Assembly (NCBI RefSeq): GCF_022340605.1 | Contig: NZ_JAJDNQ010000078.1 | Span: 1 to 64,000 of the forward strand | From: Thiohalocapsa sp. | GTDB lineage: Bacteria > Pseudomonadota > Gammaproteobacteria > Chromatiales > Chromatiaceae | Length of the DNA stretch: 64,000 bases | Direction: 5' to 3' | Shown: positions 8,469 to 46,271 of the stretch, in pieces | Position numbering within the stretch: position 1 is the first letter of the stretch | Layout of the letters: every line of letters starts with the position of its first letter | Notes under the pieces: model-generated | The model's input: only the letters and a program-made list of their open reading frames with translations | Told to the model about the DNA's origin: nothing | Databases searched by the model: none | Translations under genes and position numbers: made by a program

Positions 8469-10208
<1,740 letters not shown>

Positions 10209-10324
10209 GGGGTTCTCCGGAAAGGGCTCCGATGGCCGACGGCTCGGCGCGCGGGCGCGCACAGCGAAGGCACATCGCCGGTTGCGACAGAGTGGGAATC
10301 GGGCGGGCTCGGATCGGCGCCGCG

Positions 10325-11350
10325 TCAGGCGGCCGGCGGCGCATCCGGATAGAACGCGCTACCGAGGAAGCGATCGCCCTCCGGTGCCAGGGTCCGATCC
10401 CAGAAACCGGGCTCGGCGCAACCGAGACAGCCGTGACCGGACAGCATCGGGAAGCTGGTCCCGAGGTTCCACTTGAGCGTCGCGCAGGCGTTGTGGGCCT
10501 TCGGCCCCTTGCAGCCGAGCTTGGCCAGGCAATAGCCGTTGCGGGCGCCCTCGTCGTCGAACGCGAGCGCGAAACGCTCGTTCCGGAAGTGCATCAGCCG
10601 CGGGCAACGCTGGTGCACGGTGTCGGCGAAATAGGCCACCGGCCGCCGCAGGTCGTCCAGCTCGGGCGGTGTCCCGAAGGCGAGGAAATGGGCGATGACG
10701 CCGGTCATCGCGCCCGGCACCGGCGGGCAGCCCGGCACGTTCACCAGGGGTCGCTCTGGCACCTCGCTCGCCGACATCAAGTCGCCGACGCCCTTGGCGC
10801 CAGACTGATTCGGCCGCTCCGCGGCAATGGCCGCCGCCGCCGGCACGCCGCCGAAGGTGGCGCAGGTGCCGACCGCGATCACCAGCGCGGCGCCGTCCAG
10901 GGTCTCCTTCAGCATGTCGAGGTTCGTCTGGCCCGCGATGGTGGACCAGGTGGCCTGCTCGCCAGTGGGCACCGCGCCATCGACGATCAACACGTAGCTG
11001 CCGAAGTTGTCGTCGATCGCGTTCTGCCGGGCCAGCTCCGCGGCCTCGCCGCTGGCGGCCTGCAGCGTGTGGTGATAGTCGAGGGACAACTGGTCCAGGA
11101 TCAACGACTCGATGGTTGGCTCTGCGGCCCGCGTCAGGGACTCGGTGCAGCCGGTGCACTCCTGGAACGACAGCCAGATCACACAGGGTCGTTGCGCCGC
11201 CGCCAGATTCGCCGCCATGGTCCTGGCCGCCCCCATCGGCAGGGCCAGTGCCGATGCGGTCACGGCACAGAAGCCGAGGAAGCCGCGCCGGCTGATGCCG
11301 CGCCGGCTCAGGTAGTCGATGAAGGACTCGCGCTCTGTCATGTTGCTCAC
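10325..11350 (-). CDS. [NiFe] hydrogenase small subunit with Tat signal
   Basis: Iron-sulfur electron-transfer subunit, 341 aa. It begins with a twin-arginine export signal (SRRGFLGF at residues 20-27 and an Ala-rich hydrophobic stretch), which would carry the folded dimer to the periplasm. The proximal cluster cysteines start with ECTGCTES (C65, C68), then GTCATFGG and NVPGCPP. The distal/medial set is VHQRCP, GYCLAKLGCKGP, NACATLKW and HGCLGCAEPGFWD. The protein ends shortly after, without the C-terminal membrane anchor found in membrane-bound uptake enzymes, so it is either soluble or attached through other proteins. No Isp1/Isp2 genes separate it from the large subunit, unlike the HynS-Isp1-Isp2-HynL arrangement. 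Confidence 0.95.
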   Translation of the reverse strand: MSNMTERESFIDYLSRRGISRRGFLGFCAVTASALALPMGAARTMAANLAAAQRPCVIWLSFQECTGCTESLTRAAEPTIESLILDQLSLDYHHTLQAASGEAAELARQNAIDDNFGSYVLIVDGAVPTGEQATWSTIAGQTNLDMLKETLDGAALVIAVGTCATFGGVPAAAAIAAERPNQSGAKGVGDLMSASEVPERPLVNVPGCPPVPGAMTGVIAHFLAFGTPPELDDLRRPVAYFADTVHQRCPRLMHFRNERFALAFDDEGARNGYCLAKLGCKGPKAHNACATLKWNLGTSFPMLSGHGCLGCAEPGFWDRTLAPEGDRFLGSAFYPDAPPAA

Positions 11351-26602: not shown

Positions 26603-28012
26603 CTAAGGCAGCAGCACTGCCCCGGCCAGGCCCCTGAGCAGCCCATCCACGCCGAACCCAAGCCCGACGGTTAACGCACCCGCGAGCAGCATCGCCGTCT
26701 GCGCCCAGGGCCCCAGCACGGCGACCCGGGGCGGTGGCGGCTCGAAGTACATCGGGCCGATGACGCGGGCGTAGTAGAACAGCGAGATCACCGAGTTCAG
26801 CACCACGGCCACCGCGAGCCAGCTCAGGCCGCCGTCCACCGCCGCCAGCATCAGCAAGAGCTTGCCCGCGAAGCCCACGAGCGGCGGAATCCCGAGCAGC
26901 GACAGGAGCGCGATGGTCAGCACCAGCATGCTCCAGGGCCGCGCGCGGGCGAGTCCGCGATAGTCCTGAAGATCAGCGCGCCCCCGCAGCCGCGCCACCA
27001 CGGCGAAGGCGGCCAGGTTGGCCGCCGCATAGCCGGCGAGGAAGACGATCAGCGCCGGCAGCGCCTGCCCGCTGCGGCCGATCATGGCCACGGCCACCAG
27101 CAGATACCCGGATTGGGACACCGACGACCAGCCGAGCAGCCGGCGCACGTCCGTCTGCCGCAGCGCTGCCAGGTTGCCCAGGGTCATGCTCAGGACGGCC
27201 AGCGTGGCAATGAGCCCGGACCAGCCTGCGAGCTCGCCGCCGAGCACCTGGCCGAGGCGGGCCAGCGCGACGGCCGCGCCCACCTTCGGCACCACGGTGA
27301 GATAGCCGGCCGCCGGCACCGGTGCGCCTTGGGCGGCGTCCGGCATCCAGGTGTGCGCCGGCACGGCGCCGAGCTTGAAGCAGAGCCCGATCACCACGAA
27401 GGTCGCCGCGACCAGCCAGGCCGTGTCCGGCTGCCCGCTCCCGACCGCCTCTTTGATGACGGCGTACTCCGTCGAGCCGGCCAGCCCGAACAGCCAGACG
27501 ACGCCGATCAGCAGCAGCGCATTCGCCAGCGCGCCCACCAGGAAGAACTTCATCCCGGCCTCGACGGACAGGTCATCGCCGCGGTGATAGGCGGCCAGGG
27601 TATAGCCGGTGGTCGAGCTGAGCAGGACGCCGATGACCAGCTCCATGGTGTCGGCGGCGCCCGCCATCATCAGCGCACCGACGGTCGCGAACAGCAGCAC
27701 CGCATAGTATTCGCCGTGCCTGGGGTCGCGGCGCAGCCATTCCGGCGACATCAAGAGCACCAGCAGCGTCCCGCCCAGAATGATGAGCTTGGCCCAGACG
27801 GTGACGCGATCGATCGCCCAGGTGCCGCTGAAGCCGAGCGCCGCGGGCCAGCCCAGTTGCAAGCCCGCGGCCGCCGCCGCCACGACGAGCCCGAGCGCCG
27901 CGAGCAGCGCGCAGAACCCCTGCTGCCGCCGCGGCAGCAGGCTCGCGGACAGGATCACCACGATGGCGGCCAGCAGCACGGCGAGCTCCGGGACGAGCCG
28001 TGCCAGCGGCAT
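26603..28012 (-). CDS. nuoN: Complex I-like antiporter subunit NuoN
   Basis: 469-aa proton-translocating membrane subunit homologous to NuoN, last of the eight-gene complex I-like operon. The family segments GLCFKLGAVPAHTWMPDAAQ and the later VVPKVGAAVALARLG keep the channel lysines. The helix that normally contains the conserved glutamate (LGIEL in E. coli) reads VIGVLLSSTTGY here, so that acidic residue is missing. One base separates it from the nuoM stop. It should form one of three antiporter-like channels in the membrane arm. Confidence 0.9.
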   Translation of the reverse strand: MPLARLVPELAVLLAAIVVILSASLLPRRQQGFCALLAALGLVVAAAAAGLQLGWPAALGFSGTWAIDRVTVWAKLIILGGTLLVLLMSPEWLRRDPRHGEYYAVLLFATVGALMMAGAADTMELVIGVLLSSTTGYTLAAYHRGDDLSVEAGMKFFLVGALANALLLIGVVWLFGLAGSTEYAVIKEAVGSGQPDTAWLVAATFVVIGLCFKLGAVPAHTWMPDAAQGAPVPAAGYLTVVPKVGAAVALARLGQVLGGELAGWSGLIATLAVLSMTLGNLAALRQTDVRRLLGWSSVSQSGYLLVAVAMIGRSGQALPALIVFLAGYAAANLAAFAVVARLRGRADLQDYRGLARARPWSMLVLTIALLSLLGIPPLVGFAGKLLLMLAAVDGGLSWLAVAVVLNSVISLFYYARVIGPMYFEPPPPRVAVLGPWAQTAMLLAGALTVGLGFGVDGLLRGLAGAVLLP

Positions 28013-28013
28013 C

Positions 28014-29513
28014 TCAGCCCGCCACCAATCGCGTGGCCGTCGCGCCGATCACCGTGAGTGCCCAGCCCGGATAGACACCCAGTACGACGACGAGCAACAG
28101 CAGGCCGCAGAGCACCAGGGTCTCGGACCAACCGAGATCGGCAAAGCCCGACCAACGCGCCGGCAGCTCGCCGAAGAAGAGCAGTTGCAGCATTTGCAGG
28201 AACAGCGCCGCCGTGATCAGGATGCCGAGCAGGGCAATGGCCGCGAGCCAGGGGTAGACAGCGAAGGCCCCGGCGAAGACCTGGAATTCCGCGACGAAGC
28301 CCGCGAGCCCCGGCAGGCCCAGGCTCGCGAAGGCGGCGAGCACCGTGAGGCCGGTCAGCCGCGGCGCGCGCCGCGCCAGTCCGCCATAGGCGCGCAGCTC
28401 GTACTCGCCGCCGCGCTGCCAGAAGGCGCCCGCGATCAGAAACAGCGCGCCCGTGATCAGGGCGTGGGCCACCATCTCGAACGTTGCGCCCGTCAACGCC
28501 ACCGCCCGCGCGCTCGCCTGCCCGCTCAGCCCGGCGGCCGCCGCGATGCCGAGCACGACGTACCCCATGTGATTGACCGAGGTGTAGGCGATGCGCCGCT
28601 TCAGGTTGGTCTGCCCCCAGGCCACCAGGGCGCCGTAGACGATGGACACGACCGCGACGATCGCAAGCGGCAAGGCGTAGTGCGCAAAGGTCTCGCGCAG
28701 CATGGAAAACGGCAGACGCACCAGCCCGTAGGTGCCCATCTTCAGCAGCACGCCGGCCAGGATCGCCGAGGCCGGCCCGGGTGCGTCCACGTGCGCCGGC
28801 GGCAGCCAGGTGTGAAAGGGCACGATGGGCGTCTTGATCCCGAGCCCCAGGATCAGACCGAGCAGCACGAGCCCCGCGTAGGTCCCGCCCCCGGAGAGCG
28901 GCTGCGCGGCGATGAGGGTGCGCATGTCGAAGGTCAGCGGGTCCGTCGCCAGCACCAGGCCGATGATGCCGAGCAGCATCGCCAGCGACCCGCCAAGCGT
29001 ATAGATGAAGAACTTGAGCGCCGCCCGCCTGGCGTCCTCGCCGTGGCCAAAGCGGCCGATCAAGAAGTACATCCCCACCAGGCTGAGGTCGAAGAAGACA
29101 TAGAACAGCAGCAGGTCCAGCGCCAGGAAGACGCCGAGCGAGATGCCGTCGAGGAAAAGCAGCCAAGCGTAGTAGTGCCGCAGCCGGCCTTCGTCGGACG
29201 CGGAGTTGGGCGGCGGATAGGCGACCGCGGCGACGAAGACCAGGGCGCTGACGCTCGCCACCGCGAGCGCGATGCCGTCGACCCCGAGCCGCCAGGCGAC
29301 ACCCAGGGTCGAAATCCAGCGCAGCTCCTCCACCAGTTGGAACAGCGGCGCATCCGCCGCGGCGTCGAAGCGCACCCAGGCCACGACGAGCAGGACGAGC
29401 GGGATGGATGCGATGAGCACGGCGGCGATGCGCAGCCCCCGCGGGCTCGCATCGCGCCAGGCGGCGAGCAGCACGGCGCCGATCAATGGCACCCATATCG
29501 TGGCGCTCAGCAT
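28014..29513 (-). CDS. nuoM: Complex I-like antiporter subunit NuoM
   Basis: 499-aa homologue of NuoM/ND4. Features kept are GIKTPIVPFHTWLPPAHVDA with the channel Lys227, and LLKMGTYGLVRL. The helix-5 acidic residue, normally Glu in FFELxL, is Asp142 here (YVFFDLSLVGMYF). Start at ATG 29513, one base after the nuoL stop; longer in-frame readings into nuoL are not real. About 14 transmembrane helices are expected. Confidence 0.92.
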   Translation of the reverse strand: MLSATIWVPLIGAVLLAAWRDASPRGLRIAAVLIASIPLVLLVVAWVRFDAAADAPLFQLVEELRWISTLGVAWRLGVDGIALAVASVSALVFVAAVAYPPPNSASDEGRLRHYYAWLLFLDGISLGVFLALDLLLFYVFFDLSLVGMYFLIGRFGHGEDARRAALKFFIYTLGGSLAMLLGIIGLVLATDPLTFDMRTLIAAQPLSGGGTYAGLVLLGLILGLGIKTPIVPFHTWLPPAHVDAPGPASAILAGVLLKMGTYGLVRLPFSMLRETFAHYALPLAIVAVVSIVYGALVAWGQTNLKRRIAYTSVNHMGYVVLGIAAAAGLSGQASARAVALTGATFEMVAHALITGALFLIAGAFWQRGGEYELRAYGGLARRAPRLTGLTVLAAFASLGLPGLAGFVAEFQVFAGAFAVYPWLAAIALLGILITAALFLQMLQLLFFGELPARWSGFADLGWSETLVLCGLLLLVVVLGVYPGWALTVIGATATRLVAG

Positions 29514-29514
29514 C

Positions 29515-31365
29515 TCAGGCTCCGAGCAGGACGAAGGCCGCCATCCCGACCGCGCCGGCCGCGATCCAGAACAGGTAATGATGGGCGAGCCCCGTCTCCA
29601 GGTGTCGCAGGTCGCGGCCGGCACCATCCGTGAGCCAGGCAGCGCCCTCCGCGGCTCCGTCCATGACGCGCTCGATCCCCCGCGCCGTGACACCCACGGA
29701 CCAGCGGCCGAGCCGGGCAATGCCCGTGGGAATCGCATCCAGCACGGCGTCGTCGAACCGCGCCGCCGCCGTCGCCAGCCGCGCCAGCGGGCGCGAGACG
29801 GCAGTATCCACCAGGGTCGGCAGCCCGAGCCAATCCGCCAGCGCGCCATCGGCGTCGCGCTCGCCCAGGCGCGGCCGGCTCGCCACCAGCCAGCGCGCGG
29901 CGTAGAGGCCGACCCCCAGCGCCAGCAGTGTCGCCCGCGTCATCCACAAGGTCTCGCTGGGCAGCGCGGAAGCGAGGCCGGAACCGGCACTGGCATCCGG
30001 GCCGGCCGCCAGCCAATCCCTCACCGGCGGCGCCAACAGCAGCGACAGCGCAAGCGTCTCCACCGCCAGCAAGGTGACGGCGGCCATGGCGCCGCGGCCC
30101 GGCCGCGCGTGGAGCTCGCCGCCCTCCCCGCCCGAAGGTCCGAACACCTGCCACTGCCAGCGCGCCGCGTAGCAGCCCGACAGCGCCCCGACGAGCAGCA
30201 CGCCCGCAGCGAGCCAGGGGCTCCACTGCTCCGCTGCCGCCCCGATCAGCTCCTTGCTCCAGGCACCCGCGAGCGGCGGGACGCCCGCGAGCGCCAGGGT
30301 GCCGATGAGCGACAGCAGCGCCAGCCGCGGCAGGCGCCGGCCGAGCCCCAAATCGGCGAGCAGCGCGCTGCCCCCTGCCGACGCGGCGAGACCCGCGCTC
30401 AGGAACAACAGCGCCTTGAAGGAAGCGTGCACCACCAGGTGCAGCAGGGCGACCAGTGGGTAGCCAGCACCCACGGCCACCCACATGAGCCCGTAGTGGG
30501 CGGAGGTCGAGGCCGCGAGCAGCCGCTTGACGTGGGGCTGGAAGACCGCCACCAGACCACCGCCCACGGCCGTCGCGAGCCCGATGCCGATGACGGTCGG
30601 GGCGACCCAGCCAACACCGGCCAGCACCGGCTGCAGCCGCACCAGCAGGTAGGCCCCCGCGGCCACCATGGTCGCGGCATGCAGCAGCGCCGAGACCGAG
30701 CTCGGCCCGGCCATGGCGCGAAACAGCCAGAACGAGAACGGGAGCTGCGCCGACTTGGCGGCAGCAGCCAGCAGCAGCCCGGCCGCCACCAGGTGGAGCG
30801 GCCACCCGTGCAGCGTGCCGATCGCCTCGAACGCGAAGGAGCCGGTGGCCGCGAAGGTGGTCATCGCGGCCAGGAACAGGCCCAGGTCGCCGAAGCGCGT
30901 CACCAACAGCGCGAGTGTCGCGCTGCGCGGGTTCTCGAGCGCACGCCAGTCGTGCGCGATCAGCGCCCAGGAGCAGGCCCCCACCAGCTCCCAGCCGATG
31001 AGCAGGGTCAGCAGATCATCGGCCACCACCAGAAGCTGCATGGCGCCGGCGAAGAAGAGCAGCAGCGCGACCAGCCGCGTCAGCCCCGCGCGGGCCTCGT
31101 GCATGGCCGCGAAGAGCACCACGGGGAGCGCAACCGCCGGGACGAGGCAGACGAGCACGTCGCTCGCGGGCGCGAGCCGGGCATGGAGGGTGATTGCCGG
31201 CCCAAAGCCCCACTGCCCGCTCCAGTCACCGAGCACCGCCGCCGCGCTCTCGCCGAGCGCGGCGAGCATGGCTGCCGTGCCCCAGGCCGCGAGCGCGATA
31301 CGCCCGCGCAGGCCCAGCGCCAGTACGGCCGCGAGCATGGCGGTGAGCGGGAGCAGCCAGAGCAT
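29515..31365 (-). CDS. nuoL: Complex I-like antiporter subunit NuoL
   Basis: 616-aa homologue of NuoL/ND5. The channel residues look intact: Glu126 in LLIGWELVGACSWALI, Lys204 in AKSAQLPFSFWLF, and His229 in SVSALLHAATMVAAGAYLL. The C-terminal part should form the long lateral helix. Its ATG overlaps the nuoK TGA by one base. DabB-type NuoL-like proteins of bicarbonate uptake are an alternative family, but the M, N, H, J, K and A companions argue for a complex I-like assembly; no DabA gene is present. Confidence 0.92.
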   Translation of the reverse strand: MLWLLPLTAMLAAVLALGLRGRIALAAWGTAAMLAALGESAAAVLGDWSGQWGFGPAITLHARLAPASDVLVCLVPAVALPVVLFAAMHEARAGLTRLVALLLFFAGAMQLLVVADDLLTLLIGWELVGACSWALIAHDWRALENPRSATLALLVTRFGDLGLFLAAMTTFAATGSFAFEAIGTLHGWPLHLVAAGLLLAAAAKSAQLPFSFWLFRAMAGPSSVSALLHAATMVAAGAYLLVRLQPVLAGVGWVAPTVIGIGLATAVGGGLVAVFQPHVKRLLAASTSAHYGLMWVAVGAGYPLVALLHLVVHASFKALLFLSAGLAASAGGSALLADLGLGRRLPRLALLSLIGTLALAGVPPLAGAWSKELIGAAAEQWSPWLAAGVLLVGALSGCYAARWQWQVFGPSGGEGGELHARPGRGAMAAVTLLAVETLALSLLLAPPVRDWLAAGPDASAGSGLASALPSETLWMTRATLLALGVGLYAARWLVASRPRLGERDADGALADWLGLPTLVDTAVSRPLARLATAAARFDDAVLDAIPTGIARLGRWSVGVTARGIERVMDGAAEGAAWLTDGAGRDLRHLETGLAHHYLFWIAAGAVGMAAFVLLGA

Positions 31366-31670
31366 CAGTGCTTCATGCTCCCGAGCCGGTCGGTCATATC
31401 CACTTCCCGGCGTCGGAAAACGGCGACGACGAGCGCAAAGCCGATGGCCATCTCCACCGCCATCACCGCCATCGCGACGATGGCCAGCAACTGCCCCTCC
31501 GGCAAGCCCCCGGTGGTCAAGGACCAGAAGCCCACGGTGGCCAGCAGCACGCCGTTGATGATGAGCTCCAGACCCATCATCAGCATCACGATGGACTGCT
31601 GCGACAGCGTCCCGTACACGCCGAGCCCGATCAGGCCGGCCGCCACCACCCCGATGGCCTGCAGGGTCAT
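31365..31670 (-). CDS. nuoK: Complex I-like subunit NuoK
   Basis: 101-aa three-helix subunit. Both conserved membrane glutamates are present: in VMLMMGLELIINGVLL (helix 2) and in MAVEMAIGFALVVAVF (helix 3). These are the residues essential for proton transfer in known complex I. The start overlaps the nuoJ stop (ATGA), and the stop overlaps the nuoL start. Confidence 0.92.
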   Translation of the reverse strand: MTLQAIGVVAAGLIGLGVYGTLSQQSIVMLMMGLELIINGVLLATVGFWSLTTGGLPEGQLLAIVAMAVMAVEMAIGFALVVAVFRRREVDMTDRLGSMKH

Positions 31671-32227
31671 GGATCTTCCTCGATGGCTGGATCGACGGCC
31701 GGTGGCACCGAGCCCAGGTCCGACGGGCCGAAGCGCCCCGAGCGGCTGGACAGGATGACCACGCAGAGCATGGTGGCGAGCAGCGTCACCCCCGCCGACT
31801 CGAACACCAGCATCGATGGGCCGAGCAGCTCGCGCCCGAGCGGGGCGATCACCTCGGCGCCGCCCGGCAGTGGCCGGTCCGGCAGGTCGAGGCTCAGCGC
31901 AAAGGCGCTGAGGCCGGCAAAGGTCACGAGTCCGGCGACGATGGCGAGGCCATGCTGATGGACCATGACCATCGGATTCAGCCCGGCCGGGTTCATCATG
32001 AACATCACCATGAACAGGGCCATGACCATCATCTCCACGGCCATCATGAAAATGGTCGCAAAGCCGAGATAGGCGGCGCCGAGCATCAGCATCATGGCGC
32101 CCACCGCGATGAAGGACGCGAGCAGCAAGAACGACGCGCGCACCATGGAGTCGGTACGGAACACGCGCCAGCCTGTCAGCAGCGCCACCGCGGCGAGCAG
32201 CCAGAAGACGCCGTCCGCCCAGCTCAT
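31667..32227 (-). CDS. nuoJ: Complex I-like subunit NuoJ
   Basis: 186-aa hydrophobic subunit homologous to NuoJ/ND6: RASFLLLASFIAVGAMMLML, then AYLGFATIFMMAVEMMVMAL, which is the region of the pi-bulge helix with the conserved Tyr/Glu area. The start overlaps the nuoH stop by ATGA. Length and helix pattern are normal; Met content in the third helix is high. Confidence 0.88.
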   Translation of the reverse strand: MSWADGVFWLLAAVALLTGWRVFRTDSMVRASFLLLASFIAVGAMMLMLGAAYLGFATIFMMAVEMMVMALFMVMFMMNPAGLNPMVMVHQHGLAIVAGLVTFAGLSAFALSLDLPDRPLPGGAEVIAPLGRELLGPSMLVFESAGVTLLATMLCVVILSSRSGRFGPSDLGSVPPAVDPAIEEDP

Positions 32228-33150
32228 CGCAACGCCTCCAGGCCGGCGATGGCGAGATCCAGAAACGACAGCGGCAGCAGCACCACCCAGATGAAGGTCA
32301 TCATGCGCGACGCGTCCGGCCGGGCGAGCAGGTGACCGAGCACGACCAGCACGGCCGCGACGAGCCCGGCCTTCAGCGCGAGCCAGACGGGCCCCGGCAG
32401 CACCGGCCCCAGCGGCCCGCCGAGGAAGACCGTCGCCGCCATCGCGGCGAAGGCCACCAGCATGGCCGCCCGCGCGAGCTGCCAGGCGAGCCGGAGCTGG
32501 GCGTTGTCCTCGGCGGAGGTGCCGCCCGCCAGATCCGGCGCATCGGCGTAATCCAGCGGCCCGCGCAGCGTGATGGCGAGCCCGAGCAGCAGAAACAGCG
32601 GCAGGCCCAGGGGCTGGCGGACCAGGTTCCAGAGCTCGCGCTGCGACTCGACGATGGCGGTCAGGCGCAGCGACCCGGCCGGCAGCGCCGCACCGATGAG
32701 CACGAACATGCTGACCAGCATGATGGAGAGCCCAATGGCGACGAAGCGATAGGCGCCCATCAGCGGCAACAGCGCGTTGCTGGACCAACCGTGCAGGAAG
32801 ACGGCGATCACCGTCAGCGCCTCCACCGCCCCCCAGACGACGATGCCGGCCTCGACGTCCACGGGCGCCCGACCCACCGCCACCGCCACCGGCACCAGCG
32901 CCAGCCCGGCCGCGGCGAGGCCAAAATACAGTGCCGGCGCGAGCCGCCAGGCGGCGAGATCCGGGCGCTCCGTGCTGATCGACTGGCGGCGGATCACGGC
33001 GCGCAGCCCGCCGAGCGTCAGGCGATCATCGTCATCGATGGGCACCCGTCCCAGCAGGCGCCAGGCGAGCGCGTCCAGCACACCCACCAGGATCATGCCG
33101 GCGAAGAGCACGCAGAGGGTGAGGGGCAGCGCGGTGAGCGGGCCCATCAT
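32224..33150 (-). CDS. nuoH: Complex I-like subunit NuoH with degenerate quinone site
   Basis: 308-aa NuoH/ND1 homologue. C-terminal features are recognisable: GWSSNALLPLMGAYR, AGSLRLTAIVESQRELW, PGPVWLALKAGL and VLLPLSFLDLAI. Two hallmarks of quinone-reducing complex I are lost. The first cytoplasmic loop lacks the GPNxxGP signature (GRVPIDDDDRLTLGGLRAV instead). The ETNRxPFDxxEAExELVxG loop reads AITLRGPLDYADAPDLAGG at residues 192-210, losing several glutamates of the E-channel. It overlaps both neighbours by ATGA. Confidence 0.85.
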   Translation of the reverse strand: MMGPLTALPLTLCVLFAGMILVGVLDALAWRLLGRVPIDDDDRLTLGGLRAVIRRQSISTERPDLAAWRLAPALYFGLAAAGLALVPVAVAVGRAPVDVEAGIVVWGAVEALTVIAVFLHGWSSNALLPLMGAYRFVAIGLSIMLVSMFVLIGAALPAGSLRLTAIVESQRELWNLVRQPLGLPLFLLLGLAITLRGPLDYADAPDLAGGTSAEDNAQLRLAWQLARAAMLVAFAAMAATVFLGGPLGPVLPGPVWLALKAGLVAAVLVVLGHLLARPDASRMMTFIWVVLLPLSFLDLAIAGLEALR

Positions 33151-34415
33151 CCTGCCGCCCCGAGCATCCGGCGCAGGGCATCGGGCGAGAAGCTGGCGAG
33201 CACGCTGACGGCCTGGCCCCATTCGAGACCGCGGAGCAGCGCATCCAGGTCCAGTGCCGGCCGGTCGCCCCGGTCGCCGCCCGCGGGCGCGCCGAGCGCA
33301 CCCGCCGGACCTTCCAGCCCCTCGGCGAAGGTCGTCGGCGGCAGCCCCTCCAGCCGCGCCGCGAGATCCAGCGCCTGCGCCGCCTCGGCGAGCCACTGAT
33401 CGATGCGGGCACGCACATCGCCGGCTTGCCGGGCGATGGGCGCAAAGCCGACCCCGGTGTATGGCTCCAGCCGCGTGCGCAGGTCGTCCGGCACCCCAGC
33501 CGCGCGCAGCGCCGGCCCACTCAGACAGCCCCGCTGCGCTGCACTCAGAGTGCCGAGCCCGGGCGCGATGCCCGGCCGCAACCCCGAGAGCCAAAGCCAC
33601 CGCCTGAGCGACCCGAGGTCGACCCTGCCGCCAATCGTTGCCCGATACGCCGACGCGTAGGCGCGGGCCGCCGGCGCTGCGGCACCCCGCAGGGCGCAGA
33701 AGCGCCCGAGGCAGCGCAGATGGTGCACCGCGCGGGCGCGCTCGAGACCGGCGGCCGACATGGGCCGGTCGATGGCCGCGGCGAAGGGTGCCTCCACCAT
33801 CGCATCGCGAAACGGCGGCTGCATCACCTCGACCCGCTGGATGACGTCGCCTTGCAGCCGCAAGTCCAGCGCCAGGCCCGGCGGCAGCATGGGCGCGAAC
33901 GGACCGAGGGTGACCGCGTGGGCGTCGAGCCTGAGACCGTCCCGCAGCTCGTCGCCACGCATGGTCATGGGGCGCCCGTAGGGCGTACCACCCATCATGC
34001 CCTCCCCGCCCTGACCGTGCGGCCCCTTGCCCAGCCAGGGTGCCGGCGGCTCGTTCGGGAGCAGGTCCGGCGACGAGCCCCTGGCGCCACGGTCCAGATC
34101 GCCCTGCAAAGCGCGCATTGCGACGGCGGGCGTGGCGGCCGGTGCGAGCGCCACCGCGTCCGGCACCGGCTGCGCCCCCTCGCCCCAATGGAGCACCGCC
34201 CGCGGATGTGGCATCTGGTCGTGCACCCGGCGCAGCGCGGGCCAGCTCCGCTCCGGCAGCCGTCCCGCGATCAACAGCAGGCTGGCGGCGCGCGGCGTGG
34301 GCACGCGCCGCAGCCCGGCGTCCCGCGCCAGACCCTCGACCCACGCCAGGGCGTCCTCGCCGATAGCGGCGAAGTAGCGAACTTGCCGGTGTCCGCGCGG
34401 GATCGCTTCGCTCAC
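33147..34415 (-). CDS. Fused, cofactor-less NuoB-NuoD-like protein
   Basis: 422-aa protein between nuoA and nuoH, starting at GTG 34415, which overlaps the nuoA stop (GTGA). Residues ~36-78 follow the NuoB pattern: PTPRAASLLLIAGRLPERSW, then PALRRVHDQMPHPRAVLHWG, matching the SPRxADLLIVAGTVxxKMAP / LRRxYDQMPEPKxVIxMG block. No Cys is present there, so the N2 [4Fe-4S] cluster cannot form. A Gly-rich linker (GKGPHGQGGEGMMGG, 129-143) leads to a NuoD-like part (about 160-290): AVTLGPFAPMLPPGLALDLR, then LQGDVIQRVEV, where the quinone-site histidines of GPQHPxxHG are absent. I know of no named family with this arrangement; assignment rests on pattern and gene position. Confidence 0.75.
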   Translation of the reverse strand: MSEAIPRGHRQVRYFAAIGEDALAWVEGLARDAGLRRVPTPRAASLLLIAGRLPERSWPALRRVHDQMPHPRAVLHWGEGAQPVPDAVALAPAATPAVAMRALQGDLDRGARGSSPDLLPNEPPAPWLGKGPHGQGGEGMMGGTPYGRPMTMRGDELRDGLRLDAHAVTLGPFAPMLPPGLALDLRLQGDVIQRVEVMQPPFRDAMVEAPFAAAIDRPMSAAGLERARAVHHLRCLGRFCALRGAAAPAARAYASAYRATIGGRVDLGSLRRWLWLSGLRPGIAPGLGTLSAAQRGCLSGPALRAAGVPDDLRTRLEPYTGVGFAPIARQAGDVRARIDQWLAEAAQALDLAARLEGLPPTTFAEGLEGPAGALGAPAGGDRGDRPALDLDALLRGLEWGQAVSVLASFSPDALRRMLGAAG

Positions 34416-34759
34416 TGCCACCGGAAGATCCCCTCCCGCCAGCCGTAGAAGATGCCAATGGACAGGATCAGCAGGAACATCCCCATCTCGGCCAGCGCCT
34501 TGGCGCCGATCTCGGCATAGACCACGGCCCAGGGGTACATGAACATCATCTCCATCTCGAAGGCGATGAAGAGCAGCGTCATGGGGTAGTAGCGCAGGTG
34601 GAAGCGCTGCCAGGCGTGCGTCGCAGGCTCGCTGCCGCCAAGAAAAGGCACCTTCTGCGGCTCGCTGCCCGGCATCGGTCCCACCTCGACCTGGGCAAGC
34701 AGCAGCATCAGCCCGCCGGACAACAGCAGGATGAGCGCGAGCGCGATCAGCGCTGTCAT
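34412..34759 (-). CDS. nuoA: Complex I-like subunit NuoA
   Basis: 115-aa three-helix subunit and first gene of the complex I-like operon. The core PMTLLFIAFEMEMMFMYPWA, then VVYAEIGAKAL, is clear, with the conserved acidic pair as E-M-E. The loop that normally has the YECG cysteine reads KVPFLGGSEP, so that cysteine is absent. The ribosome site GGGGG precedes ATG 34759. A perfect palindrome TGCCTTAAGGCA at 34814-34825 lies upstream and might be an operator. Confidence 0.9.
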   Translation of the reverse strand: MTALIALALILLLSGGLMLLLAQVEVGPMPGSEPQKVPFLGGSEPATHAWQRFHLRYYPMTLLFIAFEMEMMFMYPWAVVYAEIGAKALAEMGMFLLILSIGIFYGWREGIFRWQ

Positions 34760-37112: not shown

Positions 37113-37642
37113 GAGCAGCGCGATGGCTCGCGCCCGCCGCGGCCAAGCTTGGGCGCACGAACCCAAGCACGCCCGCCTGATCCGAATCGGCGACGCGGAA
37201 CGCCTCAACCCCGGGGCACTGTCATGCGCGCGCCGGGGCGCGCTATCTCCCACGATCCAGGATCAACCTGGCCAGTCGATTGGCTTGCGCCCGACTGGCC
37301 TGACCGGGAGGCATTGGCCCGTAGCCGGACCAACGGCCGGAGACACCATTAGTGATCGCCCGGGCCATTCGGCAGGCAGGCACAGAGCGTCAGGCATCGG
37401 AGCTGTAGTGGGCACATCAGTTGCATTTTCCGCATGGTCATCCTCATGGGCTGGATAAAGGTCAGCCGCTGATCGACTCGCCACGATATTTGTAGCTTCA
37501 AGCAATAAATGCGCCAAATCTAACAGAGCATGCCGATTCCCGCGCCGTGGGCCAGGCGCCGCCGAACAAGCGCGACTTCTGGTGGATCGTCCCCACCATC
37601 GGGGGTCGGTTTCTCTCATCCGTGAGCTCACCGGAGGTCAGC
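37113..37642. other. Intergenic region upstream of copZ
   Basis: About 530 bases with no convincing gene. A minus-strand frame contains the protein-like EATNIVASRSAADLYPAHED but lacks a ribosome site and homology that I recognise. The 3' part (37470-37530) is unusually AT-rich for this genome and is the likely promoter area of copZ-copA. I do not see a clear CueR-type dyad. Confidence 0.4.
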
Positions 37643-37861
37643 ATGATCGAGCTGAAAGTCGAAGGCATGTCCTGCATGCACTGCGTCAAGGCGGTCACCG
37701 AGGCGCTGTCGCAGGTGCCGGGCGTGACGAAGGTCCAGGAGGTCAGCCTGGAGCAAGGCAGGGCCAGGGTGGAAGGCTCTCCGGACCCGGATGCCCTGGT
37801 CGCGGCGGTCAAGGAGGCCGGCTATCAGGCCGAGGTCCGTGAGGCGGGCGCAGCCGGTTGA
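37643..37861 (+). CDS. copZ: CopZ-like copper chaperone (HMA domain)
   Basis: 72-aa cytosolic metallochaperone made of one heavy-metal-associated domain: [20 protein letters not shown] with the CxxC copper site (Cys11, Cys14), then a betaalpha-beta pattern ending [14 protein letters not shown] strong GGAGG precedes ATG 37643. It lies 88 bases upstream of copA, to which it presumably delivers Cu(I). Confidence 0.9.
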
Positions 37862-37949
37862 TGGCCATCGGCGGAGGCGCTTCGCCAGGAGGCGCTCTAT
37901 CCACGAGCCATCGGCTCAAGCATTGTCGTCCCGCCGGCAGGGGGTGGAC

Positions 37950-40475
37950 ATGACGAAAGAGGTGCGCATCGGCGTCGGCGGCATGACCTGTGCCTCCTGC
38001 GTGGCGCGGGTCGAGCGGGCCATCGCGCGCAAGCCCGGGGTCGAGTCCGCCAGCGTCAATCTGGCGGCGGAGACGGCGGTGGTCCGGTACGACGAGGTGG
38101 AACTCCCCGAGCTGCTGGAGGCGGTGCGCGGCGCCGGCTACGACGCCGTCGTCGAGCAGGTCAATATCGGCGTCTCGGGCATGACCTGTGCCTCCTGCGT
38201 CGCCCGCGTGGAGCGGGCAATCAAGGCGCTGCCGGGCGTGATCACGGCGACCGTGAACCTCACCACCGAGTCGGCGGCGGTCGAGTACCTGCCCGCCACG
38301 GTCAGCCGCGAGCGCATCGCCCAGGCGATCCGGGCGGCGGGCTACGAGCCGGCGGCGGCGGACGCGGCGCCGGACGCCGAGCACGCCCGTCACGAGCGCG
38401 AGCTGCGCGCCCTGCGGCGGGACCTGATCTTCGCCGCGGCGCTCACCGTCCCACTCTTGCTGATCAGCATGGCGCCCATGTTCCTGCCCGGCGTCCGGGC
38501 GCTGCTGTTGAAGCTGGCGCCTCTGCCGGCCTGGGACTGGATCGAGCTGGCGCTCGCCACGCCGGTCCTGCTGTGGTCAGGGCGGCGCTTCATCACCCGC
38601 GGCTGGGCGGAGCTGCGGCATCTCAGCCCCGGCATGGACACCCTGGTGCTGATGGGGAGCTGGTCGGCCTACCTCTACTCGCTCGCGGCGCTCACCATGC
38701 CGCAGGCGTTTCCGGAGGGGACGGCCCACCTGTATTTCGAGGCCACCGGGGTCATCATCACGCTGATCCTGCTCGGCCGCTACCTGGAGGCAGTCGCCAA
38801 GGGTCGGACCTCCCAGGCCATCCGCCGCCTGGTGGGCCTGCAGCCAAAGACGGCACGGGTGGTCAGCGCCGACGGCGAGACCGAAATGCCGGCGGATGCC
38901 GTGGTGCCGGGCGACCTGATCGCCGTGCGGCCGGGGGAGCGCATCCCGGTGGACGGCACCCTGACCGAGGGCCGGAGCCACGTCGACGAGTCCATGATCA
39001 GCGGCGAGCCCGAACCGGTGAGCAAACACCCCGGCGACGAGGTCATCGGCGGCACCGTGAACCAGACCGGCGCCTTTCGCTACCAAGCAACGCGGGTGGG
39101 CTCGGAGACGGTGCTGGCCCAGATCATCCGGCTGGTGGAGGATGCCCAGGCCGGCAAGCCGCCGATCCAGCGCGTCGCCGACCGGATCGCCGCGGTGTTC
39201 GTGCCGCTGGTCATCCTCGCCGCAGCGATCACCTTCATCACCTGGCTCTGGCTGGGACCGCAGCCGGCGCTGGAGCTCGCGTTCGTGGCGGCAGTCAGCG
39301 TGCTGCTCATCGCTTGCCCGTGCGCCATGGGTCTCGCCACGCCCACGGCCATCATGGTGGGCACCGGGCGCGGCGCGGCGCTGGGCATTCTGTTTCGCCG
39401 CGGGGCCGCGCTCGAGACCCTGGCGCGGGTGGACCGCATCGTGCTGGACAAGACCGGCACGCTCACCGTTGGGCGCCCGGCGCTCACCGACCTACAGTCC
39501 TACGGCGTTGCCGAGGACGAGGCACTGGCCCTGGCTGCCGCGGTGGAGCGCGACAGCGAGCATCCCATCGGCACCGCCATCGTGGCCGCGGCCCGGGAGC
39601 GCGGTCTGGCCCTGGCCGAGGCCACCGACGTGGACGCCGTCCCCGGCTACGGTATCCGCGCACGCATCGGTGAACGGCAGGTCGCCGTCGGTGCGCACCG
39701 CTTCATGGAGCAGCGCTCGGTCTCGGTGACGGCAGCCGCGGAGACGGCCAACCACCTCGCGAAGGACGGCAAGACGCCCATCTATGTCGCCGCCGACGAC
39801 GCGCTGATCGCCGTGCTCGCGGTGGCGGACCCGATCAAGCCCTCGAGCCGGGAGGCCGTGGCCCGATTGCAGGCGATGGGGCTCGAGGTCGCGATGCTGA
39901 CCGGCGACGGCTGGCGCACCGCCGAGGCCGTCGCCCGCCAGGTGGGCATCGAATCCGTGGTGGCCGAGGTGCTGCCGGCGGACAAGGCGGCGGAAGTCAA
40001 GCGGCTCCAGGAAAAACAGGGCGCAGAAGGCGGCAAGGTCGCCTTCGTCGGCGACGGCATCAACGACGCCCCGGCGCTCGCCCAGGCCGATGTCGGCATC
40101 GCCATCGGCACCGGCACGGACATCGCCGTGGAAGCCGGCGAGCTGATCCTGATGAACGGGGAGCTCACCGGCGCCGCGGATGCGGTAGCGCTGGCGCGGC
40201 GCACCCTGCGCACCATCCGGCTCAATTTCTTCTGGGCCTATGCCTACAACGTCGCACTCATTCCGCTCGCCGCCGGCGCCTTCTATCCGCTCAACGGCTG
40301 GCTGCTGAATCCAATGATCGCCGCCGGCGCCATGAGCATCTCCAGCCTGTTCGTCGTAACCAACAGCCTGCGCCTGCGCCGCTTCCGACCATCCCGGCCC
40401 GCGGCCAAGACCACGCCGTCCGATCAACCTCAAGGGTGGAACAACAGCTCCATGCAGACACAGGCGCCCAGCTAG
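37950..40475 (+). CDS. copA: Cu(I)-exporting P1B-type ATPase CopA
   Basis: 841-aa copper pump. Two N-terminal HMA domains each have GMTCASC (Cys14/17 and Cys80/83). The membrane copper site CPC is at about residues 456-458 ([15 protein letters not shown]). The phosphorylated Asp is in DKTGTLT near 500, the nucleotide-domain SEHPIG follows, and the hinge [14 protein letters not shown] comes near 695. Start at ATG 37950 ([11 protein letters not shown]) with a G-rich ribosome site. The TAG stop at 40473-40475 is part of the CTAG end of a repeat element, so the original C-terminus may have been slightly altered. Confidence 0.96.
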
Positions 40476-41924: not shown

Positions 41925-43299
41925 ATGACCGCACTTCGGCTGCTCACCCGCCCGTCGCTCTGGACAATGGTCTACGCGGGCATGATCGCGTGGTCGGCCT
42001 ACGCCCTCTGGGCCATGCCGATGGAGGTGCTGCCGCGCTTCGCGTATCCCCAGGTCGGCATCGTCGCGCACTGGCCCGGCGCCTCGCCTAACGAGATGGA
42101 GGCACTGGTCCTGAGGCCGCTGGAGGGCGAGTTGCTGGGGCTGTCCGATCTCGCGAGCCTGCACGCGCTCGGGCAAACGCTAAACCTGCTGACCCTCGGC
42201 GCCCTCACCGTCGCGGTGGGCCTGCTCGCCGACGACGGCATCATCGTCCTGGAGGCGATCTTTCACCGCTGGGAACAAGGACAGCTCGGCAGCGACGGGG
42301 TTTGGCTGGGCCTCAAAGACATTGCCGCGCCCGACAACAGCGGCACCCTGACAACGGTCTCGACCTATCTGCCGTTGGTCGCCGTGACCGGGCTCGCCGG
42401 CCTCTTCTTCGTCCCTTTCGCCCTGGCCATGAGCCTGGCGCTGATTGGCTCGCTCGTGGTCTCGCTGACACCGATTCCGCTGCTTGCCGCGAGGCTCAGA
42501 TCGTCGCGCCAGCCGGCGCAGACGCGCGGTGGCAGGCTGCTCGCGACGCTCGGCCGACTGAACAGCCGACTGCTCGATATCACCATCGCACATCCGCGCG
42601 TCAGTCTGGCCATCAGCGCGCTGCTGCTGGCGGCGAGCGCGGGCGCACTGGCGCTCGCGCCGACCCACTTTCTTCCGCTCCCCAACGAGGGTGTGCTGCT
42701 CGACAGCTTCACCCTGCCCCCGGGGACCTCACTCGATCAGACGCGCGCCACGATGATCGACCTGGACATGCTGCGCAAGCTCTCCGCGCAGGCCGTGGCG
42801 CGACTGCGCACCGTCCCGGCCCTAACCGACCTATTCAACAACGACGCCTATCCGGTGACGCAACTGCGGATCAGCCCAAAACCGGAGGCGATGCGCGCCT
42901 TCGCGATCACTCCCGCGGCGCTGAGCCGGCAGCTGCGGCCCACCCTGCGTGGGGACGTCATCGCCCAGATGCCGGATGGGGACTATCGATTGGCGCTCTT
43001 CCTGCGCCTCACCCACGCCGAGCGGCTCTCCACCGAGGCGCTCGGAGGCATCCTGATCAAGACCGGGCAGGGCTGGACCCCGTTGGGCATGCTTGCCGAT
43101 GCGCATTCGCTTCCGCCCCATCGTGCTGACCACGCTCACCGCGGTGCTCGGCATGCTGCCCACTGCATTGGGCTGGGGGATCGGTGCCGCGCCCGAGCAA
43201 GGGCTCGCCCTGGTCATCGCGGGCGGCGTCCTGTGGAGCTCCATCCTGTCCACCAACCTGCTGCCGACGCTCTATCTGCATTGGCGGCGGCCAGACTGA
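41925..43299 (+). pseudogene. Internally deleted RND efflux pump gene
   Basis: Fragments of a ~1000-residue RND transporter compressed into about 460 codons. Segments in order: helix 1 and the porter start (MEVLPRFAYPQVGIVAHWPG), then directly the helix-4 region with the proton-relay Asp pair (TVAVGLLADDGIIVLEAIF), later helices, and part of the second porter half (FLPLPNEGVLLDSFTLPPGT). A frame change near 43090 leads to the last helices (MRIRFRPIVLTTLTAVLGML to LLPTLYLHWRRP). It has a start at ATG 41925 but cannot form a working pump. Confidence 0.8.
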
Positions 43300-43312
43300 A
43301 CCGGAGGTCGAG

Positions 43313-43969
43313 ATGACTTGCTGTGCCATGTCCAACGCCGACACCGGCCGAATCTTCTCCCGCTTCGCGGGCATGCACCGCTGGCGCCATCGACTGCTGG
43401 GCCTGGAGCGCACCCAGCGCCAGCTCGTCGCGGGGCTGCGGCGGGCAGGCATCGTCGATGCCTCGCTGCTGGAAGTCGGCTGCGGCGCCGGGGAGCTCCA
43501 GCGCGCCCTGCTGCGGGCGGGCGCCAGCCAGGCGACGGGGGTCGACCTGTCGGCGGGCATGCTCGCCATCGCCCGGGCGGAGGCCGCGGCGAGCGGGATG
43601 TCCAATCGGACCGAATACCGCCAGGGCGACTTCACAGCGATGGCGGAAGAACTGCCGGACGCCGACGCGGTCGTCCTGGACAAGGTGGTCTGCTGCTACC
43701 CCGACTGGGAGCGCATGCTAGACCGCTCGCTGGGCAAGGCGCGCCGCCTCTACGCGCTCACCTACCCGCGCGACCGCGGCCTGACCCGGCTGGTGCTGCG
43801 GGCAATGCGCTGGGGCCTGCACCGGGCGGGCTGCTGCTACCAGCCCTACCTGCACGATCCCGAGCGCATCGCCGCGCGCATCCGGGAGCACGGCTTTCAC
43901 CGGGTTGACGCCGCGCTCACCCCGGTCTGGCTGACGGAGGTCTACGCCCGCGCCCGAGACAGCCGCTGA
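43313..43969 (+). CDS. Class I SAM-dependent methyltransferase
   Basis: 218 aa with ribosome site GGAGGT before ATG 43313. Motif I is ASLLEVGCGAGELQRALL near residue 50, acidic motif II TGVDLSAGMLAIARAEA, and the motif IV region PDADAVVLDKVVCCYPDWER resembles Mg-protoporphyrin methyltransferase-like proteins (BchM branch). The N-terminus has an unusual MTCC and the C-terminal region a second CC pair. Its place inside a copper cluster is consistent with a detoxification-linked role, but the substrate is unknown. Confidence 0.8.
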   Translation: MTCCAMSNADTGRIFSRFAGMHRWRHRLLGLERTQRQLVAGLRRAGIVDASLLEVGCGAGELQRALLRAGASQATGVDLSAGMLAIARAEAAASGMSNRTEYRQGDFTAMAEELPDADAVVLDKVVCCYPDWERMLDRSLGKARRLYALTYPRDRGLTRLVLRAMRWGLHRAGCCYQPYLHDPERIAARIREHGFHRVDAALTPVWLTEVYARARDSR

Positions 43970-44176: not shown

Positions 44177-44737
44177 ATGCGTAGAACACACTTGGCACCT
44201 CTTGCCCTGTCGGCCTTGCTGCTGGCAAGCCCGTTCGCCATGGCCGCCGAAACCGGCCAATCGCAGTCAGGGACCGCAACGAACACCGAAAGCGCAACGG
44301 CCATAAAGCCCGCCGCGGGCACCTCGGAAACCTCCGCTGCCGGTGCCGGTGCCGGGATGACGACGGGGAGCTCAGCGGCAACAGGGGCCGGCATGAAAAG
44401 CAGCGAGGGCAGCCAGAGCGGCCAGAGTAACGAGGGCGGCCAGGAGGCCGAGGAAAGCACCCAACCGGGCTACATGGGACCGGGCATGATGATGGGTGGC
44501 CCGGGCATGGCTGGTTGCCCCTACATGATGGGCGGCGGCGCGGGCATGGGGCCTGGCTACGGCATGGGTGGTCCGGGCGCGGGTAGGAGCGGCTGCATGG
44601 GCATGATGCACCATCACCACCACCATGGGACGTGCGGCGGGCAGAAGACCTACAACGCGCTGATGAATCGTCTTGACCTGATGGACGCGAGAATGGCCAA
44701 GATCGAGACCCTGCTGGAGGGGCTCATGCAGCGATAG
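44177..44737 (+). CDS. Periplasmic Met/His-rich putative copper-binding protein
   Basis: 186 aa with signal peptide (LAPLALSALLLASPFAMAAE), a low-complexity Ser/Thr/Gly segment, then a Met-Gly-rich domain (YMGPGMMMGGPGMAGCPYMM) and a six-histidine run in GMMHHHHHHGTC. It ends in a short helix, LMNRLDLMDARMAKIETLLE. Met and His clusters with Cys are typical of periplasmic Cu(I)/Cu(II) buffers, and the neighbours are copper genes. No formal family recognised; start ATG 44177 lacks a strong ribosome site. Confidence 0.7.
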   Translation: MRRTHLAPLALSALLLASPFAMAAETGQSQSGTATNTESATAIKPAAGTSETSAAGAGAGMTTGSSAATGAGMKSSEGSQSGQSNEGGQEAEESTQPGYMGPGMMMGGPGMAGCPYMMGGGAGMGPGYGMGGPGAGRSGCMGMMHHHHHHGTCGGQKTYNALMNRLDLMDARMAKIETLLEGLMQR

Positions 44738-45896: not shown

Positions 45897-46271
45897 ATGA
45901 ATAAGGTCATTCCGTTCACCGCCCTCTTCGCGGCGCTTGCGACGGCGCCCGCGAGCGCCGCAGATCAATTCCCGGACTCTGGCAAGACGATAGAACATGG
46001 TGCCATCAGCGAGGCCGACATGATGCACGGCGAAACCGGCGCCGGTGCTACAGGCCAGGGCGTCATCAACAGCGTTGATACGGACAAACGTATCGTCAAT
46101 ATCACCCATGGCCCCATCCCGGCATTGAGCTGGCCCGGGATGACCATGGACCTGCCGGTGACCAAGGATGTTGACCTGAACGGCATGCAGCCGGGCGACA
46201 AGGTGCGTTTCCACATCGCGCTCGGTGCCGATCAGGTCTACCGGATCACCGCAATTGACCCGACACCCTGA
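45897..46271 (+). CDS. CusF-type periplasmic copper-binding protein
   Basis: 124 aa with signal peptide (residues 1-22, ending ASAAD) and a CusF-like OB-fold domain: GVINSVDTDKRIVNITHGPI, then PALSWPGMTMDLPV, containing the His, Trp and two Met that bind Cu(I)/Ag(I), and QPGDKVRFHIA. GGAG precedes ATG 45897. CusF normally hands copper to an RND CusCBA pump; in this cluster the RND genes are broken, so it may act with CopA or as a buffer. Confidence 0.88.
   Translation: MNKVIPFTALFAALATAPASAADQFPDSGKTIEHGAISEADMMHGETGAGATGQGVINSVDTDKRIVNITHGPIPALSWPGMTMDLPVTKDVDLNGMQPGDKVRFHIALGADQVYRITAIDPTP

Follow-up and report, generated by a model that had tools for sequence, protein, structure and literature searches.

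The window, that is, the whole stretch of 64,000 nucleotides analysed here, carries a tight run of eight minus-strand genes, which extends from position 34759 down to 26603 and follows the order A-X-H-J-K-L-M-N. Seven of these genes were identified by Pfam and NCBIfam as Nuo-type membrane subunits A (34412..34759, Pfam Oxidored_q4, E 4e-25), H (32224..33150, Pfam NADHdh, E 8e-37), J (31667..32227, Pfam Oxidored_q3, E 5e-15), K (31365..31670, Pfam), L (29515..31365), M (28014..29513) and N (26603..28012), the last three being matched by both Pfam and NCBIfam. The remaining gene, X (33147..34415), encodes a protein of 422 amino acids and starts with a GTG codon that overlaps the end of nuoA. An earlier note on this DNA had described X as a NuoB-NuoD fusion located between A and H. 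Its coordinates were exact, and the position between A and H was found in the window and in nearly all relatives with intact gene calls. At 33147-34415 the frame is also open on the plus strand, but the NuoB and NuoD matches belong to the minus-strand frame and a plus-strand gene was rejected.

A canonical nuo operon is present on another contig of the same genome (L143), and its genes A, B, C, D, E, F, G, H, I, J, K, L and M were recovered before the fetched stretch ends. Canonical NuoB was also detected in all 16 other cassette-bearing genomes tested. The electron-input subunits C, E, F, G and I were absent from the window cassette and from related cassettes and occurred only in the separate canonical operon. 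Thus, the cassette is an extra copy that lacks these subunits. The genome of the window gave ten PF01058 matches, and at 8469-11341 (minus strand) the window carries a pair that is by sequence the large and the small subunit of a [NiFe] hydrogenase.

X consists of a NuoB-like domain (residues about 12-115, 34071..34382, minus strand), a glycine-rich linker (residues 127-153, 33957..34037, minus strand) with the aligned pattern GxGxxGQGGEGMMGGxPYGRPMxM, and a NuoD-like domain (residues about 165-354, 33354..33923, minus strand). For X itself, Pfam and NCBIfam gave only weak matches. Residues 34-81 matched NuoB models (NCBIfam, E 3e-7) with a score under the curated NCBIfam cut-off, residues 286-352 matched NuoD/FpoD (E 2e-6), and the Pfam NuoD score was marginally under the cut-off for the window protein and over it for relatives. 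Among 60 relatives, 55 matched a NuoB model and 33 a NuoD model. When the profile of the X family was compared with the PDB, NDUFS7 was retrieved at E 2e-8 and NDUFS2-type chains at E about 2e-6. Profile-profile comparison by hhalign, which the earlier note had suggested as a check, gave a probability of 94% (E 1e-7) for X against canonical NuoB and of 93% (E 2.5e-7, residues 268-357) against NuoD.

The AlphaFold2 model of X has a mean pLDDT of 89.7 and a pTM of 0.88. In Foldseek, the whole model was aligned with NuoD over about 390 columns with TM values of 0.4-0.5 and E-values down to 1e-8; a low whole-model TM is expected since the first quarter of X is NuoB-like. For the NuoB-like N-terminal domain modelled alone (pLDDT 91.7) TM values of up to 0.65 were obtained, and the 50 Foldseek matches listed were all NuoB or the equivalent subunits of group-4 hydrogenases and photosynthetic complex I. 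Structure prediction thus yielded matches to both folds, and the no-match outcome that would speak against a fusion did not occur. The assignment of the C-terminal part to NuoD also held, but not its placement in the first beta-sheet region, since the strongest match lies in the middle of NuoD (GxG..SGpalRAaG..DlR...GD..aR).

The linker is nearly invariant in the main clade and is retained in the divergent G026/G085 proteins. Residues 136-153 form the sole long disordered stretch of the model and are at the same time the most conserved part of the protein. The patterns used for the genome scan sit in this linker and could inflate its apparent conservation, but all 7 homologues that came from whole-protein or profile searches retain it and we therefore rejected a search artefact. 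The possibility that X is a decayed pseudogene was rejected as well, because about 120 loci share a conserved reading frame and linker.

X was said to lack the cysteine for the N2 cluster and the histidines of the NuoD motif GPQHPxxHG, and both statements were borne out. In an alignment of 60 members there was no column with cysteine in more than 11 of them, and 7 members were wholly cysteine-free. The MGxC motif of NuoB reads HWGEG in the window protein, the region of the later cysteine ligands is absent, and the N2 Fe-S cluster ligands of NuoB are not conserved. GPQHPxxHG is changed to GPFxPxxPPG (GPFAPMLPPG in the window), so that both quinone-site histidines are lost.

Residue mapping of the membrane subunits gave a divided picture. 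In NuoH, 67 of 68 main-clade members lack Glu157 (E. coli numbering), which is mostly replaced by Ile, Met or Leu; the acidic loop is altered, and several acidic residues of the quinone-entry loop are retained as Asp. The membrane arm is predicted to be no longer able to use quinone in the known way. The channel residues of NuoL (E144, K229, H254, H338, K342, K399), NuoM (K234, K265, E407) and NuoN (K217, K247, K395) are kept, as are NuoA E81, NuoK Glu35/E36 and NuoK Glu73/E72 (D in 5 sequences). Exceptions are NuoM Glu144, which is Asp in 65 of 65 sequences, and NuoN Glu133, which is Leu in 66 of 66. Retention of the channel residues and loss of the cofactor residues indicate that the ion-moving part is under selection and that the electron-moving part is gone.

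Several features of the cassette proteins hint at the handling of copper. In a divergent form of X, the NuoB and NuoD parts are separated by an insertion of two or three HMBD domains (YTCPMHPEVxSDxPGxCPxCGMxL, Pfam HMBD, best E 3.5e-44) and of His-rich runs, at the site of the main-clade segment GEGMMGGxPYGRPMxM. His/Met-rich C-terminal tails were found in 13 X members, mostly alphaproteobacterial. In the membrane arm, the methionine content of the cassette proteins exceeds that of canonical comparison sets (12-17 proteobacterial sequences per subunit) in NuoA (8.1 vs 2.8%), NuoJ (8.3 vs 4.4%) and NuoK (8.6 vs 3.8%); the corresponding P-values ignore ancestry, and the enrichment may represent one event that was later preserved. 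A general methionine bias was rejected because H, L, M and N of the same cassettes are poorer in methionine than their canonical counterparts.

The additional methionines occupy fixed positions. NuoA M69, M71 and M74, which lie in the Met-rich TM2 (FEMEMMFMYPW in the window), were present in 74 of 74 cassettes and in 3 of 3 divergent sequences, and are mostly other residues in canonical NuoA. NuoK has Met29/31/32/70 added or kept. In NuoJ, 13 columns contain at least 90% methionine in the cassette vs 2 in canonical sequences. Its TM3 and the following loop (31955..32056, minus strand) form a Met-rich helix followed by NPAGLNPMxMVHQ; here M61, M62, M66, M69, M73, M77 and M78 were found in 57 of 57 cassettes (canonical V, Y, V, L, V, L, D) and the new E65 in 56 of 57 (canonical A). 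Both divergent NuoJ sequences examined retain the methionine set and E65. A methionine stripe on one face of NuoJ TM3 was not significant (p 0.14). M62, which is methionine throughout, corresponds to E. coli Tyr59 and is followed three residues on by E65. Complex I Y59 corresponds to Mrp E706, a residue that belongs to the Na+/K+ site, and the path by which cations leave Mrp coincides with the E-channel of complex I (PMC7419157).

The scan for X covered 84,980 species genomes and yielded 120 relatives, 80 of which were retained. They occur in Gamma- and Alphaproteobacteria, one Burkholderiaceae, one Rhodanobacter and two MAGs labelled Actinomycetota. The cassette itself was found in about 120 loci, nearly all proteobacterial, which fall into three clades, and all loci with intact gene calls have the order A-X-H-J-K-L-M-N in common; the simple gene caller missed genes at several loci (e.g. 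L040, L083), and gaps there are not biological. In an even phylum sample, a clear X was present in 5 of 399 genomes and the divergent, longer form in 4 more. Plasmids of Halomonas, Vreelandella, Roseivivax and Acuticoccus carry the cassette, with X annotated as hypothetical protein or left fragmentary. On the Vreelandella sulfidaeris plasmid pBAA-803-A (L042), the cassette is annotated as short hypothetical proteins with split genes, probably owing to frameshift errors of the record. The X of a record named Endozoicomonas sp. G2_2 (L044) is >88% identical to that of Salinisphaera, which suggests mislabelling or recent transfer.

In the NuoH tree, the main clade, the G026 clade and the longer form make up one group (100/95), a topology that indicates a single origin of the cassette. 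This group is sister to canonical NuoH (100/95) and stands apart from Hyf-like proteins (100/98). An ancestral hydrogenase-type complex is therefore not favoured.

To characterize the genomic context, we compared the fetched flanks (mostly 10 kb) with reference proteins from annotated copper clusters. A copper or heavy-metal gene was found beside 41 of 84 cassette records vs 0 of 14 random stretches (Fisher p 3e-4), the few controls being random stretches of 20 kb, drawn from other genomes, that were usable. Roughly half of the loci lack any recognised copper gene within 10 kb, and many of these lie in Halomonas chromosomes. Since the loci are also non-independent, the copper context is an association and not a proof. 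In named records the neighbours include multicopper oxidases, CopB/C/D, DUF411, CueR and Cu-ATPases; the divergent clade L123/L124 adjoins CusF-like and Cu-ATPase genes, and at L183, a locus of clade 3, a multicopper-oxidase fragment lies upstream.

In the window, an HMA protein, a copper-type P-type ATPase and a CusF protein lie 3-11 kb from the cassette on the opposite strand. The heavy-metal-associated (HMA) protein is encoded at 37547..37861 (plus strand, Pfam HMA, E 3e-16) and the ATPase, which has two HMA domains, at 37944..40475 (plus strand, Pfam and reference copper proteins); the periplasmic copper-binding protein of the CusF type follows at 45897..46271 (plus strand, Pfam CusF_Ec, E 1e-26). 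A small protein whose sequence is rich in Met, His and Gly is encoded at 44393..44737 (plus strand). At 41925-43316 there is an RND gene of the CusA/AcrB type of only 463 aa, which is the pattern of a truncated or internally deleted pump. CueR-like boxes were detected upstream of six cassettes vs 0.7 expected, exclusively in alphaproteobacteria and only in some of them, and the best box (L041) is located upstream of a different gene. With six loci only, a general regulation of the cassette by CueR was rejected.

To our knowledge, no described family joins metal-binding parts and a NuoB-NuoD cap devoid of cofactors to the membrane arm of complex I. In the open literature searched, such a cassette is mentioned only by Eddie et al., for one organism. 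The copper cluster of Marinobacter atlanticus includes a cassette of this type, which is co-expressed with copper genes (Eddie et al. 2021, PMC8233155). It resembles the present one in having A, H, J, K and L genes and a hypothetical protein, and almost certainly belongs to the same family. Eddie et al. called a D-like gene NuoD, took another gene as a hypothetical protein and reported no M or N; the fusion, the ligand loss, the metal domains, the methionines and the wide distribution were not described (PMC8233155).

The cassette is a variant of the complex I/Mrp superfamily. With respiratory complex I (NDH-1, NuoA-N) it shares the membrane subunits and their order, the sister relationship of NuoH and the NuoB and NuoD parts from which X is built. 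Unlike complex I, it lacks the electron-input subunits, Fe-S and quinone ligands in X, NuoH Glu157 and NuoJ Tyr59, has Met-rich A, J and K subunits and is an extra copy beside the canonical operon. Like the Mrp antiporter (PMC7419157), it appears to use antiporter machinery without redox chemistry, but it has NuoA, NuoH, three separate antiporter subunits and the NuoB-NuoD cap, lacks MrpE/F/G and carries methionines where Mrp has polar residues. At the position of Mrp E706, NuoJ has methionine (M62), with the acidic E65 three residues later. NuoN Glu133, which is lost in the cassette, matches the coupling-point Glu of Mrp, and the Mrp analogy is therefore not exact. Group 4 [NiFe] hydrogenases, FHL and MBH have NuoB, NuoD, NuoH and antiporter folds in common with the cassette and were among the Foldseek matches; unlike X, they keep Fe-S and usually NiFe ligands, and their NuoH homologues form a separate branch. 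CusCBA and the Cu P-type ATPases export copper, and HMBD or HMA domains occur in their wider family, but their folds and their energy coupling are unrelated to those of the cassette. For CusA, Met-based Cu(I) pathways have been described (PMC8092243).

A respiratory proton pump seems to have been remodelled by bacteria into an ion transporter linked to metals. The copper link of the cassette is well supported, and we infer that the complex may transport copper. Our preferred reading, for which we see slightly less than an even chance, is a redox-dead, Mrp-like complex that would catalyse Cu(I)/H+ antiport and help to keep copper from the cytoplasm. X, a single cap without cofactor ligands, would replace the electron-transfer module on the A, H, J, K, L, M, N arm and, by homology, would dock on NuoH/A/J/K where NuoB and NuoD dock. 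Its linker, HMBD domains or His/Met tail may constitute a metal site that takes over from the N2 cluster and the quinone chemistry, and Cu(I) would be the most likely metal. Cu(I) held by X at the cytosolic face near the former quinone chamber would then occupy a Met/Glu-lined site in NuoA/J/K at the location of the Na+ or K+ site of Mrp antiporters; binding or passage of Cu(I) there would be coupled electrostatically to proton flow through L, M and N, like that of Na+ in Mrp. Because of the resistance-gene neighbourhood, the likely direction would be protons in and copper out. The folds, the lost ligands, the gene set, the single origin, the copper context and the Met/Glu pattern are consistent with Cu(I)/H+ antiport; the copper-gene-free half of the loci, the insignificant NuoJ methionine face, the loss of NuoN Glu133 and the patchy CueR boxes count against it. 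Somewhat more tentatively, we suggest a fourth mode of the complex I machine, in which neither electrons nor Na+ but Cu(I) would be the coupling ion, bound by a dead NuoB/NuoD cap, conducted through the Met-lined former E-channel and coupled to proton flow in the three antiporter subunits.

Copper may instead be the signal and not the cargo. X would then sense cytosolic Cu(I) and gate a Na+/H+, K+/H+ or plain H+ path, which would protect pH or proton-motive force under metal stress. The metal-binding parts on the cytosolic cap, the intact L, M and K channels, the abundance of the cassette in halophiles and the many loci without copper transport neighbours would all suit such a gate, but taken alone it leaves the 20 or so methionine columns inside A, J and K unexplained and we consider it rather unlikely. 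The earlier note regarded a purely structural adaptor that caps the membrane arm as the simplest reading, and a cofactor-free fusion that serves to stabilise an antiporter for protons or sodium, without any relation to metals, does fit as a cap. The cap role stands by homology, but a purely structural function is weakened because the most conserved part of X is disordered in the model, because one clade has heavy-metal-binding domains in the linker and other members have His/Met-rich tails, and because the membrane helices expected beneath the cap have gained invariant methionines. The copper context and the Met/Glu pattern of A/J/K point in the same direction, and we regard this function as improbable. 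The conserved linker, the HMBD domains, the tails and the new methionines make it more likely that the cap binds or senses a metal ion, probably copper.

Readings in which electrons are still transferred must be weighed against the missing ligands. Eddie et al. proposed that the M. atlanticus cassette draws energy from copper redox reactions (PMC8233155), so that Cu(I) oxidation at X would power the pump; the co-expression with copper genes in this organism (PMC8233155) and the multicopper oxidases and cytochromes c that are often nearby agree with this proposal. X, in turn, offers neither an electron-transfer cofactor site nor quinone histidines. As the potentials of Cu(I)/Cu(II) and of ubiquinone lie close together, little energy would be left. 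Because of the missing cofactor chain and these potentials, copper redox as energy source is less likely, and we judge it quite improbable. Very improbable, in our view, is a complex that is still a redox enzyme and recruits an unlinked soluble electron donor to a changed quinone site. The Asp residues kept in the quinone-entry loop of NuoH would be compatible with it, as would the neighbourhood of clade 2, which includes a molybdopterin oxidoreductase-like gene and a small cytochrome b-like membrane protein, but X has no cofactor ligands, NuoH Glu157 is almost always lost in the main clade and the cassette contains no extra conserved subunit.

If the Cu(I)/H+ antiport reading is correct, copper transport by the cassette would represent a coupling of a new kind. 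It has long been asked how quinone chemistry in complex I is linked to proton channels far away from it, and a complex that keeps the proton channels and much of the coupling axis with electron transfer removed would separate coupling residues from redox residues. It could also show an antiporter machine that is driven or used by a metal ion. Moreover, it would add an unrecognised class of copper-handling complex, which is present on some plasmids and annotated as NADH dehydrogenase subunits and a hypothetical protein.

Additional genes were observed next to individual cassettes. The relative G085 (L012/L124) has a Cu-type ATPase, a small membrane protein and a SUOX-type gene that is molybdopterin oxidoreductase-like in its neighbourhood. 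Just upstream of nuoA at a Halomonas locus without other copper gene in our count (L052, 9115-9456), a Cys-rich small protein is encoded that resembles four-helix copper storage proteins. The ergothioneine genes egtB and egtD directly follow nuoN at L039 (23078-25350) and about 17 halophilic gammaproteobacterial loci, and their presence in many loci of the Halomonas group may further connect the cassette with copper or with oxidative stress. Genes for small cytochrome c-like proteins (about 210-340 aa, with a start like ...SGxYNxxA...) adjoin the cassettes at L045, L058, L060, L105 and L109, and these recurrent proteins might be partners of the complex.
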